From positions 62,001 through 126,000 of the forward strand of contig JAFYYW010000037.1 in assembly GCA_017548985.1 (NCBI GenBank): 64,000 nucleotides of DNA, read 5' to 3'. Positions 44,613-50,344 of the stretch are shown here, piece after piece. The first letter of the stretch is position 1. Every line of letters starts with the position of its first letter. Made by a program: the position numbers and the translations under genes. The notes beneath the pieces were generated by a model. It saw only the letters and a program-made list of their open reading frames with translations, ran no database searches and was not told the origin of the DNA. Source of the DNA: Bacteroidales bacterium. Its GTDB lineage: Bacteria > Bacteroidota > Bacteroidia > Bacteroidales > UBA932.

Positions 44613-47600
44613 TTAAAAAGAAACATTTACACCTGCGCTGAACATCCTCACAGAAGGATACTGGTAGTAAGTTCCGTTTTTGAGGTTCATCTCCGGATCA
44701 AAATCCTTCATCTTGGTGAATGTCAAGGCATTCTGAGCATTGGCAAATATCTTGACTCCCTTTACGGTATTATGGAAAAGCTTGACAGGGAGCCTATAAG
44801 AAAGTTGGATGTTCTTCAATCGCAAATAAGAAGCGTCCTTGAGCCAGAAATCATTGGTTCTGACATTGTCGTTGAGCGAATCCTCATAACAGGTTATGAT
44901 GGGCAGACGCGCGGACTCTCCCCTTTCGGGTGTCCATGAATCAGTCAGCCACTCATTGGTCAAGCCGCAACCGAACCAGAAAGGAGTAGAACCCATCTTA
45001 TCCGCATAGGCTTTGACTCCGGCGACACCCTGGAACATGGCCTCCAGATCGACGGGACCGTATCCCACTCGGATATTGAATGCATAATTCGCTTTCGGAA
45101 TCACGGTCCCTACTATCTTTCGATCCTCTTCAGTTATTGTACCGTCTTTATTGACATCTTCAAATTTCAAATAGCCTGGTCTTGTCGTTGATGTCTGGAA
45201 AGGACTGTTGTCAATCTCCTCTTGTGACTGGAATATCCCGATGTTATGGAGCATATAGTATGAGTCAATCGCTTCTCCCTCTTTAAGGATGAACATACCA
45301 TCGATGGTCGTATCTCCGTTGAGATTAGTAATACGGTTCTTGATCAAGGCCGCGCTTCCGGATATTCCGTAATGGAACTTTCCGATGTCATCGCGCCATC
45401 CTAGCATCACCTCGATACCCTTGTTGCTCACGTCTCCGATGTTGCGGATGGGGCCCCTCAGGTCACCTATTTGCGAAGGAAGAGTAACTGTTCTGAGAAT
45501 ATCCGAGGTCTTCTTGTCAAACAGGTCCAGACTGAAAGTGAGCCGTCCTGAATACAAACTTGCATCAAGGCCGATATCGGTCATTGTAGTGGTTTCCCAG
45601 GAAATATTTGGATCGTTGTAAGCATCCACCGCAGCACCGTTCTGTATCTTTCCGTTCAAAGCATAGGTATAATCCGCAATATTGACAAGGTCTACATACC
45701 TGAACATCTCAATATCCGAGTTACCAAGCTTTCCCCAGGATGCCCTAACTTTGAGGTTGTCAACCCAATCGACCTGCTTCATAAAAGGTTCTTCGCTGAT
45801 CCTCCAGCCAGCTGAGAAGGAAGGGAAGATACCCCAACGATGTCCCTTCGCAAAACGGGACGATCCGTCGTACCTGAGATTAGCCTCGAACAAATACCTG
45901 TCAAGGAAAGAGTAATTGAGCCTTCCGAAATAGGACATACGGACTGATTTCGAGGATGTTCCGGTTACCTGGGCATTGGCGGTTCCTGCATTCAGCTCAC
46001 GCAGGTCATTGCCAAGGAAACCTTCTATCTTTGCGGTAAAAACCTTGGTCTGATTGCTCTCGTAGCTATAACCTGCCATCGCTTTTACATCGTGCTTTCC
46101 GGAAAACTGATGAGCCCATGTCAATGTGTTGAAGATGGTCATCGCAAGGTCATTTTCGTCTTCCCGGTATGCCTGACGCGTATTCCAGTCATCGAAGTTT
46201 ACCCTTTCAGATGCATCAGTTTTGAGATTGTATGTATAAATATCCGGTGCGAAAATCGACATAAGATAATCATACTTGTTTACTCCGACATTCAAATTGT
46301 AAACAACGTCAAGCGGCAGGCGGTATTCGACGGAGAGATTGATTAGAGCGCGCTGTGCACTGCGCTTGCGCTCTCCTTCGTCAGCGAGTGCCAGTGGATG
46401 ACGGTATTTGTTGTGACCGGGAGTCCTGATGAAGGTATTGGCATATCTTCCGTCGGCTGTATATGTAGGATGGAAGGCTGTGGCCTTGAAGGTCATCTGC
46501 ATCAGGTTGGAAACCCCAGAAACCGGAGCGTCAATCAATTTGTATTGGGCGTTGACATTGGCTCCTATCTTCAGTCTTGGGGTAACTTGTGCCGTAGTGT
46601 TGACTGAGAAATTGAAAATATCCGACCCGGATCCACGCAGAACTCCATCTTGCTGTGTATAACCGCCTGATACCGAATAAGTGTACTTATCTGTACCACC
46701 GGAGAAGCGCAGGTTGTGCTCCATGATAAATGCATTGTTGAACATTATGTCCAGCCAGTTGTTGTTCTGGTAGGTAATGGGATCTGTCAACATACCTTGG
46801 CGATATTCCTCTATAATAGCATCGGAATAATCAACCGTAAGCTTACCCGCATTCCGCTGCGCCTGGTTGCGAGTTTCCATAAAAACGATAGGATCATACA
46901 CGAAATCAGGGAGATAGGTGGCTTGCTGGAATCCAAAGTAATCGCTGTATTCGATTGTAAACTTGCCGTTGTTGGACGCATTGCCGGCCTTGGTCTTGAC
47001 AAGGATGACACCGTTGGCAGCTCGCGAACCATAAATGGCGGAAGATGCCGCATCCTTCAGCACGGAAATGCTCTCAATATCATTAGGGTTTATGGCATCC
47101 AGGGGAAACTCGATACCATCCACGAGGATAAGAGGATTGTTGTTGTTCAATGTTCCCTGACCACGGACACGTATGGTCGCCCCGTCGAATCCCGGCTGAC
47201 CGCCGGCCTGGTTGACATACACACCAAGCATTCCCTGGAGTACCTGGGAAGAGCTGGTGATCGGGCGGTCCTCGATAGTCTTCGAATCTATCGTGGCTAT
47301 CGATCCGGTCAGGTTGACCTTCTTCTGGGTGCCATAACCGACCACGACCACTTCCTGCAATTCGTCCACATCTTCAGAGAGTGTGACGAGCATATTCTGG
47401 GCTGCCGCGACTTCAACGCCCTGGTAGCCTATGGAAGAAACCATCAGAGGAGCTCCTGGCTCGACACTGAGGACAAACCCTCCGTCCAAGTCTGATACCG
47501 TACCTACGGAAGAAGAACCCTTCAGTGTTATCCCAGCACCAATCACAGGTTCACCACCGGTTGAAACGACCCTGCCTCGAATCGGTTGTACGGGTTGCTG

Positions 47601-47930
47601 CTTCGAAAAAGTAATGTATCCTTTCGAATAATCATATTTCAGCCCTTTAGCAGCGGAAAACTCGTTCAATAACGTAACAAGACGAGCAGAAGCCGCAGAG
47701 AAAGTGACTGATTCTGAAGGATCCACCTGAGCCTGACTATAAACGACAAGGCATTTTGTCTGGGATTCGATCTCGGAGAAGAACTTCTCGATGGTAACAG
47801 TCCGCGAACCGAGATTAACTGTGGTTGTAGGCAGCGATTGAGCCGCCACAGGGAAATGGGCAAAAACGGATAGTATCAAAAAAAGGCTGATACAGGCCGC
47901 TTTGGAGAACAATTGACTGTTTTTTTTCAT
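44613..47930 (-). CDS. SusC-family TonB-dependent transducer with STN domain, sulfatase locus
   Basis: The 1105-residue protein has a signal peptide (about 1-31), then an STN domain (about 35-108, with NLGSRTVTIEKFFSEIESQTKCLVVY) that in this class contacts a FecR-type anti-sigma factor across the periplasm. A carboxypeptidase-regulatory domain (about 115-195), the plug with VVVVGYGTQKKVNLTGS and the beta-barrel follow. It ends in GVNVSF. The ATG at 47930 is the start of the signal peptide. A FecR and an ECF sigma factor are encoded upstream, so it should both import and sense the glycan. Confidence 0.95.
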   Translation of the reverse strand: MKKNSQLFSKAACISLFLILSVFAHFPVAAQSLPTTTVNLGSRTVTIEKFFSEIESQTKCLVVYSQAQVDPSESVTFSAASARLVTLLNEFSAAKGLKYDYSKGYITFSKQQPVQPIRGRVVSTGGEPVIGAGITLKGSSSVGTVSDLDGGFVLSVEPGAPLMVSSIGYQGVEVAAAQNMLVTLSEDVDELQEVVVVGYGTQKKVNLTGSIATIDSKTIEDRPITSSSQVLQGMLGVYVNQAGGQPGFDGATIRVRGQGTLNNNNPLILVDGIEFPLDAINPNDIESISVLKDAASSAIYGSRAANGVILVKTKAGNASNNGKFTIEYSDYFGFQQATYLPDFVYDPIVFMETRNQAQRNAGKLTVDYSDAIIEEYRQGMLTDPITYQNNNWLDIMFNNAFIMEHNLRFSGGTDKYTYSVSGGYTQQDGVLRGSGSDIFNFSVNTTAQVTPRLKIGANVNAQYKLIDAPVSGVSNLMQMTFKATAFHPTYTADGRYANTFIRTPGHNKYRHPLALADEGERKRSAQRALINLSVEYRLPLDVVYNLNVGVNKYDYLMSIFAPDIYTYNLKTDASERVNFDDWNTRQAYREDENDLAMTIFNTLTWAHQFSGKHDVKAMAGYSYESNQTKVFTAKIEGFLGNDLRELNAGTANAQVTGTSSKSVRMSYFGRLNYSFLDRYLFEANLRYDGSSRFAKGHRWGIFPSFSAGWRISEEPFMKQVDWVDNLKVRASWGKLGNSDIEMFRYVDLVNIADYTYALNGKIQNGAAVDAYNDPNISWETTTMTDIGLDASLYSGRLTFSLDLFDKKTSDILRTVTLPSQIGDLRGPIRNIGDVSNKGIEVMLGWRDDIGKFHYGISGSAALIKNRITNLNGDTTIDGMFILKEGEAIDSYYMLHNIGIFQSQEEIDNSPFQTSTTRPGYLKFEDVNKDGTITEEDRKIVGTVIPKANYAFNIRVGYGPVDLEAMFQGVAGVKAYADKMGSTPFWFGCGLTNEWLTDSWTPERGESARLPIITCYEDSLNDNVRTNDFWLKDASYLRLKNIQLSYRLPVKLFHNTVKGVKIFANAQNALTFTKMKDFDPEMNLKNGTYYQYPSVRMFSAGVNVSF

Positions 47931-48026
47931 AAATTTGAAATTTGTGGGTAGTATTTGTAATCTATCGAGGATTGACAATAAGACCTGCTTGACCGGTGGA
48001 TGTGGCAGCATTCGCCGGTCTTTTTT
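47930..48026 (+). ncRNA. Candidate cis-antisense RNA opposite the susC leader
   Basis: On the plus strand GACCGGTGGATG (47991-48002) pairs with CATTCGCCGGTC (48009-48020), followed by T6 (48021-48026), an intrinsic terminator. Two G-U pairs hold only on this strand; on the minus strand they become A-C mismatches. No plus-strand gene precedes it. TAAATTTG at 47930-47937 fits a -7 element; a TTTG lies 25 bases upstream (19-21 expected), so the promoter is weak. The predicted RNA is about 80 nt, opposite the susC leader, like the antisense RNAs known from other Bacteroides glycan loci. Confidence 0.5.
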
Positions 48027-48067
48027 ATGCTTTATACAATTCTGGTTTTAAAAACAAACAATGGTTA

Positions 48068-49042
48068 TTATCTGGTTATGTATATTATATTGGCTTCTTC
48101 GTCACGTGAAATCTTGAAAGGATATATCTTCTGAAGGATACGTAATATCTCCATCACTCCATCAGTCTGATGGAATTTGCCCGTGTAGCGATACTGCAGC
48201 AAGGACGGGTCTTTTACATCGATCTTGACATCGTAATACAATTCCAGTTTCTTAAGTATTTCCAACATGGATTTGTCTCGGAATGAATAGTAACCGTTCA
48301 CCCAGTCCAGAGGATAGCCAGGCATTTTCTGCTTGACGTATCTACTTGGCTCATGCTCTACAACTTGCTCGCCTTCAAAGAGAGTTATCCCCTTCTCGGG
48401 GTGTTCAGGGGCATATACCATCACAGAACCATTGATTAATGAAATCACAAGATTTTCCCCAACATAGTTGAATATGTTGAAGCTGGTACCCAAAGCCTTG
48501 ACGTCAAGTTTATCAGTAGCGACGATAAAGGGCCGGTCTGGATCCTTGGCGACCTCGAAATAAGCCTCTCCTGATATATGGACTCGCCTTTCTTCGTTGA
48601 ATACTGATGGATAATCCAATGTTGTTCCAGCGTTAAGCCACACTTTTGTTCCATCCGGCAGCGTCGTGAGCGCCCTGTGCCCTGCCGGAACAGATGTGCT
48701 GATCATCGGGATTTCAGACAGTGCTTTTTCTGCACCATTATCACGAGTTATAAACCAAGTTCCGAGAATACAGGCGGCAATGACAGCCGCATATTTCGCT
48801 GTCTGCAAGACAAAACGTCTTATCCTGGCGAAGCGACGCCCTCGCATAAACTCCTCATAGCTTTTCTCGCCCGATTCCGAATCAATCATCTCTGATGAAA
48901 GGGAAAACAAAGAACTGATGACCTTGATATCTTTTAGCTGGGCCAGAAGTTCTTCATCCTTCTGGACTTCCCGCAGGAACGCCTTGCGCTCCTGCGGGTC
49001 CAGGATCCCTTCAACCAATTTTACGATCCTACTATCCATCAT
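48068..49042 (-). CDS. FecR-family anti-sigma factor
   Basis: The 324-residue protein has a short cytoplasmic N-terminus (about 1-80, sigma-binding), one membrane helix (about 82-100, TAKYAAVIAACILGTWFI) and a periplasmic FecR domain (about 110-310). FecR proteins hold the ECF sigma factor inactive until the STN-bearing SusC binds its ligand. The gene follows the sigma factor by 64 bases and precedes susC by 137 bases. Confidence 0.93.
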   Translation of the reverse strand: MMDSRIVKLVEGILDPQERKAFLREVQKDEELLAQLKDIKVISSLFSLSSEMIDSESGEKSYEEFMRGRRFARIRRFVLQTAKYAAVIAACILGTWFITRDNGAEKALSEIPMISTSVPAGHRALTTLPDGTKVWLNAGTTLDYPSVFNEERRVHISGEAYFEVAKDPDRPFIVATDKLDVKALGTSFNIFNYVGENLVISLINGSVMVYAPEHPEKGITLFEGEQVVEHEPSRYVKQKMPGYPLDWVNGYYSFRDKSMLEILKKLELYYDVKIDVKDPSLLQYRYTGKFHQTDGVMEILRILQKIYPFKISRDEEANIIYITR

Positions 49043-49106: not shown

Positions 49107-49670
49107 TCAAATAATATTTATCAAAAACAGTAGAATAGGAAGACAGTCACGCAATTCTTCTCGTAGTTTCTTATATGCGATAGCCATTTGGCTCTCTACT
49201 GTATTAACGGATAAACCAAGTGACGAAGCTATGTCTTTCTGTTTGATTCCATTGATCTTATTCATGACAAAAATCTGCCGACATCTGTCTGGAAGTTTGT
49301 CCAACGCTGTTTTCAGCCTAGCTTCGATAACATCCTGATCGGGGAAATCCGTGTCGAACTGTTCCAATGCCTGCAATGAAATCCTGTCTATAAAAACCTG
49401 TTCCTGGTCGTCAATATGCAGTACTTTTCGATTCAATCTGCTCTTCAGTAGGTTTAGGCAACGATTCTTTATGGAGGTCAGGAGATATGCGGTCAGATTG
49501 ATACCTCCGGACTCCAAGGACAAAAACTGACGTTTCTCGTAGATGCCAAGGAAAACTTCTTGGATAATCTCTTCCGCATCATGCTGATTCCCGACAAACT
49601 CCAAGGCAAAAGCCTTGGCACGAGAATACCAAGTGACATAAAAAGACTTGTAATCGAAAGGGTTCGCCAT
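49107..49670 (-). CDS. ECF RNA polymerase sigma factor
   Basis: The 187-residue protein has sigma region 2 (about 25-60, with FVGNQHDAEEIIQEVFLGIYEKR) and region 4 (about 125-180, with FVMNKINGIKQKDIASSLGLSVNTVESQ). It should drive the sulfatase locus and be controlled by the FecR protein encoded next to it. The ATG at 49670 (MANPFDYK) is preferred over upstream codons because region 2 then starts at the usual distance. A -7 element lies 19 bases upstream. Confidence 0.93.
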   Translation of the reverse strand: MANPFDYKSFYVTWYSRAKAFALEFVGNQHDAEEIIQEVFLGIYEKRQFLSLESGGINLTAYLLTSIKNRCLNLLKSRLNRKVLHIDDQEQVFIDRISLQALEQFDTDFPDQDVIEARLKTALDKLPDRCRQIFVMNKINGIKQKDIASSLGLSVNTVESQMAIAYKKLREELRDCLPILLFLINII

Positions 49671-49689
49671 CACAAGACACAGTTCAAGG

Positions 49690-49697
49690 CAAATATA
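49690..49697 (-). promoter_or_regulatory. -7 element for the ECF sigma factor gene
   Basis: TATATTTG on the minus strand matches TAnnTTTG, 19 bases before the ATG at 49670. It lies 10 bases from the opposite-strand -7 element of the zeta-like gene. Confidence 0.5.
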
Positions 49698-49707
49698 GTG
49701 TTTTTTG

Positions 49708-49715
49708 TATATTTG
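49708..49715 (+). promoter_or_regulatory. -7 element for the zeta-like gene
   Basis: TATATTTG on the plus strand matches TAnnTTTG and ends 8 bases before the ATG at 49724, predicting a very short leader. Confidence 0.5.
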
Positions 49716-49723
49716 CAGATACA

Positions 49724-50344
49724 ATGCCACGACTCTTCATCATATCTGGTTGCAACGGTTCCGGGAAAACCACGGCATCCTATGCCGTGCTGCCAGGACT
49801 TCTCGGATGCAGCGAGTTCGTCAACTCTGACGAGTTCGCCAAGAGTTTCTCGCCATTCAGCCCTGAGAAGGCTTCCGTCGCCGCCAGCCGCTTCATGTTG
49901 ATGAAGATGAGGCGCCTGCTGGACAGGAAGGAGGATTTCGCCATCGAGACCACCTTGGCCACAAGGTCTATGATCAAGATGATCAAAGACGCGCAAAAAG
50001 AGGGCTATTATGTCACTATCCTTTACCTATGGCTGAACTCTCCTGACCTGGCGGTGGCGAGGGTCAAGGCGAGAGTGGCCGCAGGTGGCCACAACATTAA
50101 GGAGGAGACTGTCCGGAGGCGCTACAGTGTTGGCCTGCATTACCTTTTCAGGGATTTCATGCCAATCTGCGACAGGTGGATCCTTTGTGACAACTCTGAG
50201 GATAAGCTCCGGTTGGTCGCCGAGAGTTCCGGGAACGGGATCACAGTGCGTGACCCCGAGACTTTCGGGAAAATCAAGACGATGAATTCGATTTATGAGA
50301 AAGAGTTGAAAGAAGAGGAAAAGAGGAAGAATGCCCAACAATGA
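49724..50344 (+). CDS. Zeta-toxin-like P-loop kinase
   Basis: The 206-residue protein begins with a Walker A motif, GCNGSGKTT (residues 9-17), and has VNSDEFAKSFSPFSPEKAS and FAIETTLATRSMIKMI typical of zeta-toxin-family kinases. Zeta toxins phosphorylate UDP-N-acetylglucosamine, but many chromosomal members have no known toxic role. No epsilon-like antitoxin gene is beside it. It overlaps tldD by 14 bases, so translation is coupled. It could instead be a small-molecule kinase unrelated to toxicity. Confidence 0.8.
   Translation: MPRLFIISGCNGSGKTTASYAVLPGLLGCSEFVNSDEFAKSFSPFSPEKASVAASRFMLMKMRRLLDRKEDFAIETTLATRSMIKMIKDAQKEGYYVTILYLWLNSPDLAVARVKARVAAGGHNIKEETVRRRYSVGLHYLFRDFMPICDRWILCDNSEDKLRLVAESSGNGITVRDPETFGKIKTMNSIYEKELKEEEKRKNAQQ

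Follow-up and report, generated by a model that had tools for sequence, protein, structure and literature searches.

The start of a susC homologue in the analysed window (the whole stretch of DNA under study, 64,000 nt) is faced on the opposite strand by the elements of a short cis-antisense RNA; the reading we favour, with a probability of about 0.8, is that this RNA, issuing from a promoter on the susC start codon, represses leaky or residual susC message. A plus-strand sigma-ABfr promoter with its -7 box on the start codon would drive an RNA of about 80-85 nt, which would run back through the susC leader and, before reaching the end of the anti-sigma gene, stop at an intrinsic terminator. 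As long as the ECF sigma factor stays inactive, the RNA, or its transcription, would silence leaky susC message; pairing with the leader beside the translation start would block ribosome loading or bring about decay of the message, and the silencing may be divided between such pairing and interference by transcription. Once a glycan activates the ECF factor, the sense message would outnumber the antisense RNA. Read from the DNA itself, the case is built from the promoter box, the terminator, their strand, a conserved register and covariation (Table 1).

The minus strand of the window carries an ECF sigma gene, a FecR-type anti-sigma gene, susC, susD and three sulfatase genes, with 137 nt separating the anti-sigma stop from the susC start; on the plus strand no gene lies upstream of the putative antisense RNA, as the preliminary description had stated. 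A susC reading frame from 48011 was rejected as a mechanical extension; the start at 47930 gives a signal peptide and is for this reason taken as the right one. FecR_C genes number one in this genome (42 contigs) and 12 in a relative of the same genus. Between the ECF sigma and anti-sigma genes, the coding strand has a terminator-like hairpin of its own, CCGTCAAGTTTTTGGCGG followed by T8 (49101-49074, minus strand), which could uncouple the two genes in part.

Table 1. Features of the susC leader and its surroundings, in window coordinates.
Feature	Position	Strand	Basis
susC homologue (TonB-dependent receptor), presumed target of the antisense RNA	44613..47930	-	Plug, beta-barrel and CarbopepD_reg_2 domains
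-7 box TAAATTTG of the predicted antisense promoter, overlapping the susC start codon	47930..47937	+	same register in relatives
susC leader, stretch able to pair with the antisense RNA	47931..48067	-	
Predicted cis-antisense RNA, about 80-85 nt, 5' end placed to within a few nt	47942..48026	+	box, T-tract, model R1 match, fold (z -5.3)
Predicted 5' stem-loop of the antisense RNA, weaker	47944..47988	+	fold
Terminator stem-loop, 13 bp, apex TGTGGCAGCA	47991..48020	+	fold; covariation in relatives
T6 tract of the terminator	48021..48026	+	
FecR-type anti-sigma gene	48068..49042	-	PF04773, PF16344
ECF sigma factor gene	49107..49730	-	Sigma70_r2, Sigma70_r4_2

On the plus strand the hairpin reads GACCGGTGGATGT-GGCA-GCATTCGCCGGTC, followed by T6, and folds at -21.3 kcal/mol (z -5.5; 0 of 200 shuffles equal it), as against -11.7 kcal/mol when read on the susC strand; the difference arises from three G-U pairs that exist on the plus strand only and turn into A-C mismatches on the other. 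The form of an intrinsic terminator on the strand opposite susC, first proposed on sight of the hairpin, is thus confirmed by the fold energies and the T6 tract, with a correction to the number of strand-specific G-U pairs, which had been given as two. The plus-strand segment 47938-48026 as a whole folds at z -5.3, and the leader as read on the susC strand is unremarkable (z -1.0). The hairpin and its T6 form the sole strong plus-strand terminator-like site within 44-52 kb; a generic promoter and terminator scan of the 8-kb region returned 7 sites where shuffles lead one to expect 7.8, that is, no enrichment, so that the case had to rest on comparison.

The box TAAATTTG fits TAnnTTTG, the -7 consensus of promoters served by sigma-ABfr, the housekeeping sigma factor, and begins with the base complementary to the A of the susC ATG. 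A -33 TTTG at standard spacing was not found; the nearest TTTG lies 25 nt upstream of the box. An RNA started here would have its 5' end about 12 nt from the AUG, covering most of the adjoining leader and not the AUG itself.

Of 28 CarbopepD_reg_2 matches in this genome, mostly to susC-like genes, this susC alone has a strong antisense terminator at most 100 nt from its start, and the TAnnTTTG box is missing from the other susC leaders inspected there. A nucleotide search with the leader in 60 relatives found nothing in the genus and two weak matches (26-49 nt) in other families: one, L031, is a member of the antisense family, and the other, L030, was rejected as a different gene. A plasmid search gave no match, and Rfam, both at the gathering score and at E 10, gave chance matches only, the best named being Phe_leader (18.8 bits, E 2.2).

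The element recurs at FecR-susC junctions of the order, gathered both in the genus and in other families; 134 are readable, among them 54 whose gap is below 60 nt and 77 whose gap is 60-399 nt. The antisense strand of these 77 long-gap junctions has TAnnTTTG 41 times, and 32 of the junctions have it in the one register CATAnnTTTG, CAT being complementary to the start codon; 33 have an antisense terminator 40-160 nt away, and box and terminator occur together in 24 (Fisher P 1.9e-6 with relatedness ignored, a guide only since the loci are related). At the short-gap junctions neither is found (0/54 for the box, 0/54 for the antisense terminator). Terminators inside the long-gap leader stretch lie on the antisense strand in 32 leaders and on the sense strand in 8, with 0-2 in dinucleotide shuffles. 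A one-mismatch box is present in 10 of 57 leaders with gaps of 120-399 nt, and several box loci that have no called terminator carry a hairpin with an imperfect T-tract. The antisense RNA appears from these junctions to be a recurrent partner of ECF/anti-sigma loci where susC has its own leader; the preliminary description had it as a layer of RNA control added to an ECF/anti-sigma locus, and the setting is as described, but the RNA is a regular companion of such loci rather than an odd extra. Loss of the element from close homologues, which had been put forward as evidence against the RNA, is seen in part: it is missing from those three FecR homologues of the genus that are nearest (G180, G073 and G017, at 43%, 47% and 45% identity, with gaps of 34-99 nt), while many more distant ones retain it. 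The module is thus gained or lost between loci.

The sense leaders of long-gap loci also show a recurrent GCYTATGR / ATG-codon-stop motif (for example in L073, L092 and L140), mostly 27-48 nt upstream of the hairpin; ATG-codon-stop is present in 16 of 31 sense leaders, where shuffles lead one to expect 1.9, and the present locus is without the motif. It may be a minimal leader reading frame or, equally likely, an ECF promoter element.

Covariation in the stem, to which the preliminary description had looked as a check on the hairpin, is borne out in relatives: two-sided changes are seen at all 12 pairs of 36 aligned hairpins, and the covariation score is 0.640, against 0.255 for shuffled and 0.15-0.22 for slid alignments. 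The hairpin might instead work in the susC message, for instance as a 5' stabilising stem-loop, with CAAAnnTATG as a translation-start signal, and in 8 of 37 relatives the sense fold is equal to the antisense fold or stabler. This is nonetheless very improbable: in box-locus hairpins chosen strand-neutrally, the T-rich flank lies on the antisense side in 30 loci and on the sense side in 2, G-U pairs number 55 in the antisense reading and 27 in the sense reading, and the box is missing at all 54 short-gap susC starts and in the other leaders inspected in this genome. The hairpins also share their apex, which is exactly TGTTGCNGCA in 6 of 37 unselected hairpins, where shuffling gives an expectation of 0.01; the apex of the present locus, TGTGGCAGCA, differs from it by one mismatch.

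A search of 84,980 bacterial and archaeal genomes for the pattern TTTTCATANNTTTG-N48-78-TGTTGCNGCA-N6-16-TTTTT finds at least 80 loci. Among the matches listed, 78 are titled Bacteroidota (Bacteroides, Parabacteroides, Dysgonomonas, Butyricimonas, Prolixibacteraceae, Flavobacteriaceae, Chitinophaga, Algoriphagus and others), and the other two titles are Chlorobiota (yet with SusC) and Riflebacteria. Seventy of these listed loci have SusC exactly at the predicted ATG and/or FecR just upstream, and 58 have both; the pattern places no condition on the stem arms, and these pair at eight positions in 63-69 of the 70, through many pair types. Over 622 kb of listed loci, all 68 occurrences of the apex hairpin have a box upstream; the loci were selected for having the apex hairpin, and the informative part is thus its absence elsewhere. 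Eight further listed matches, with near-perfect stems, sit on isocitrate lyase genes of Flavobacteriaceae, outside the FecR-susC context, and two listed matches without a stem are set aside as chance.

Isocitrate lyase (PF00463) loci with CATAnnTTTG on the start codon, a hairpin with the TGTTGCNGCA apex and a T-tract are L202, L217, L222, L231, L237, L248, L249, L246 and L301; the identity of the gene comes from Pfam for L248 and L246, and from a shared N-terminus for the remaining loci.

A covariance model, R1, built from 56 of the scan loci with the present genome excluded, has a single match in the window, at 47928-48025 on the plus strand (51.3 bits, E 1.1e-5). At E<=0.01 the whole genome has no second match, and of the 27 loci of this genome that were searched only this one matches. 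The model also matches 38 of 55 junction loci, at the positions predicted from box and terminator. Whole-genome matches inspected (n=19) fall on FecR-SusC junctions by HMM in 16 cases and on isocitrate lyase in one; the other two, near contig ends, coincide with the known junctions L038 and L093. At least 12 of 198 genomes of the phylum have a match, a lower bound because 21 of thousands of first-look candidates were scored per genome. The cis-antisense RNA of about 80 nt proposed in the preliminary description, reaching from TAAATTTG to the T-tract, is supported at the level of sequence by box register, co-occurrence of the terminator, covariation, strand asymmetry and recovery by R1. It is hardly credible that the hairpin is a simple terminator, halting pervasive antisense transcription from susC with no dedicated RNA or promoter: B. 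thetaiotaomicron commonly transcribes antisense strands, in part perhaps without function (PMC7366714), but TAnnTTTG stands in one fixed register and co-occurs with the terminator, and the R1 matches are full-length.

By its architecture, the RNA predicted here belongs to a known kind, the DonS-type antisense RNAs of PULs. DonS-like RNAs of Bacteroides fragilis and B. thetaiotaomicron lie opposite the 5' end of susC in PULs, measure 78-128 nt and often have a sigma-ABfr promoter (PMC7366714, PMC10994844); ten, and later 32, have been mapped in B. thetaiotaomicron (PMC7366714, PMC10994844). For cis-antisense RNAs of that species in general, a sigma-ABfr promoter is reported for 52%. The present locus has in common with them the plus-strand position opposite the 5' region of susC, between anti-sigma stop and susC start, and a predicted length (about 80-85 nt) within their range; its box fits the sigma-ABfr -7 element, but TTTG is off the standard -33 spacing. 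The likeness is drawn from published descriptions of these RNAs, and the same architecture is found in Bacteroides records, for example in B. cellulosilyticus DSM 14838 (L223). What differs is the setting in another genus and the spread across the phylum; the start-codon-locked promoter, the ECF/FecR link and the conserved loop are features that this analysis reads from sequence. The FopS/GibS sRNAs of Bacteroides likewise have an intrinsic terminator and target PUL genes, FopS blocking a susC near its start codon (PMC11697453), but their action is in trans, by way of a conserved 5' seed, and they are mostly not antisense. Flavo-1 RNA (RF01705), of Flavobacteriaceae, is likewise short and structured; a search for it in 18 loci gave one match, in L237 (6603-6685), away from the antisense element.

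The preliminary description had named DonS as an example, and the anatomy agrees with this as far as sequence goes; repression is argued by analogy. DonS, the sole pair tested genetically, is described as lowering the expression of its susC (PMC7366714, PMC10994844), which favours repression here. Repression is not assured, since antisense-PUL pairs in B. thetaiotaomicron show some positive correlations beside the negative ones (PMC7366714, PMC10994844); these would suit an RNA that activates or buffers susC, for instance by masking a decay site (PMC10994844 for the positive pairs), which the repressing role described for DonS renders improbable.

A further account, doubtful but to be taken seriously, is that repression is due to transcriptional interference, in which polymerase seated at the susC start or moving away from it collides with sense transcription, the RNA being a by-product and the terminator serving only to keep antisense read-through out of the anti-sigma gene and the susC promoter. 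Because the box is fixed on the start codon, a polymerase at this site would cover the first codons, and the terminator of every member is near the end of the anti-sigma gene or upstream of it. Interference, however, has no need of a conserved terminator apex, and DonS-like RNAs accumulate as discrete RNAs (PMC7366714). Repression of leaky message by the antisense RNA, or by its transcription, remains the preferred reading. The recurrent loop suggests a shared partner, for which RbpB is a candidate protein, or a structure for fast pairing; because pairing in cis needs no particular sequence, conservation of the loop would point to a common partner.

In the literature consulted on PUL antisense RNAs, we found no description of phylum-wide spread, of a start-codon-locked promoter, of the recurrent TGTTGCNGCA apex or of occurrence on isocitrate lyase genes. 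We advance tentatively, as a conjecture with the odds against it, that these RNAs are an undescribed family spread across Bacteroidota, with a start-codon-locked promoter and with the loop GUUGCNGC as a shared site for an RNA-binding protein or for targets in trans, and that they form one network. If this is true, the RNAs, including those on isocitrate lyase genes, would constitute a single network between glycan uptake and central metabolism rather than many independent cis repressors; the idea of a common partner for the conserved loop is directly testable, and such RNAs can now be looked for with a covariance model or by a simple DNA signature. For the antisense RNAs of PULs, these considerations would turn a trait of Bacteroides into a conserved module of ECF/FecR-controlled susC genes across Bacteroidota.
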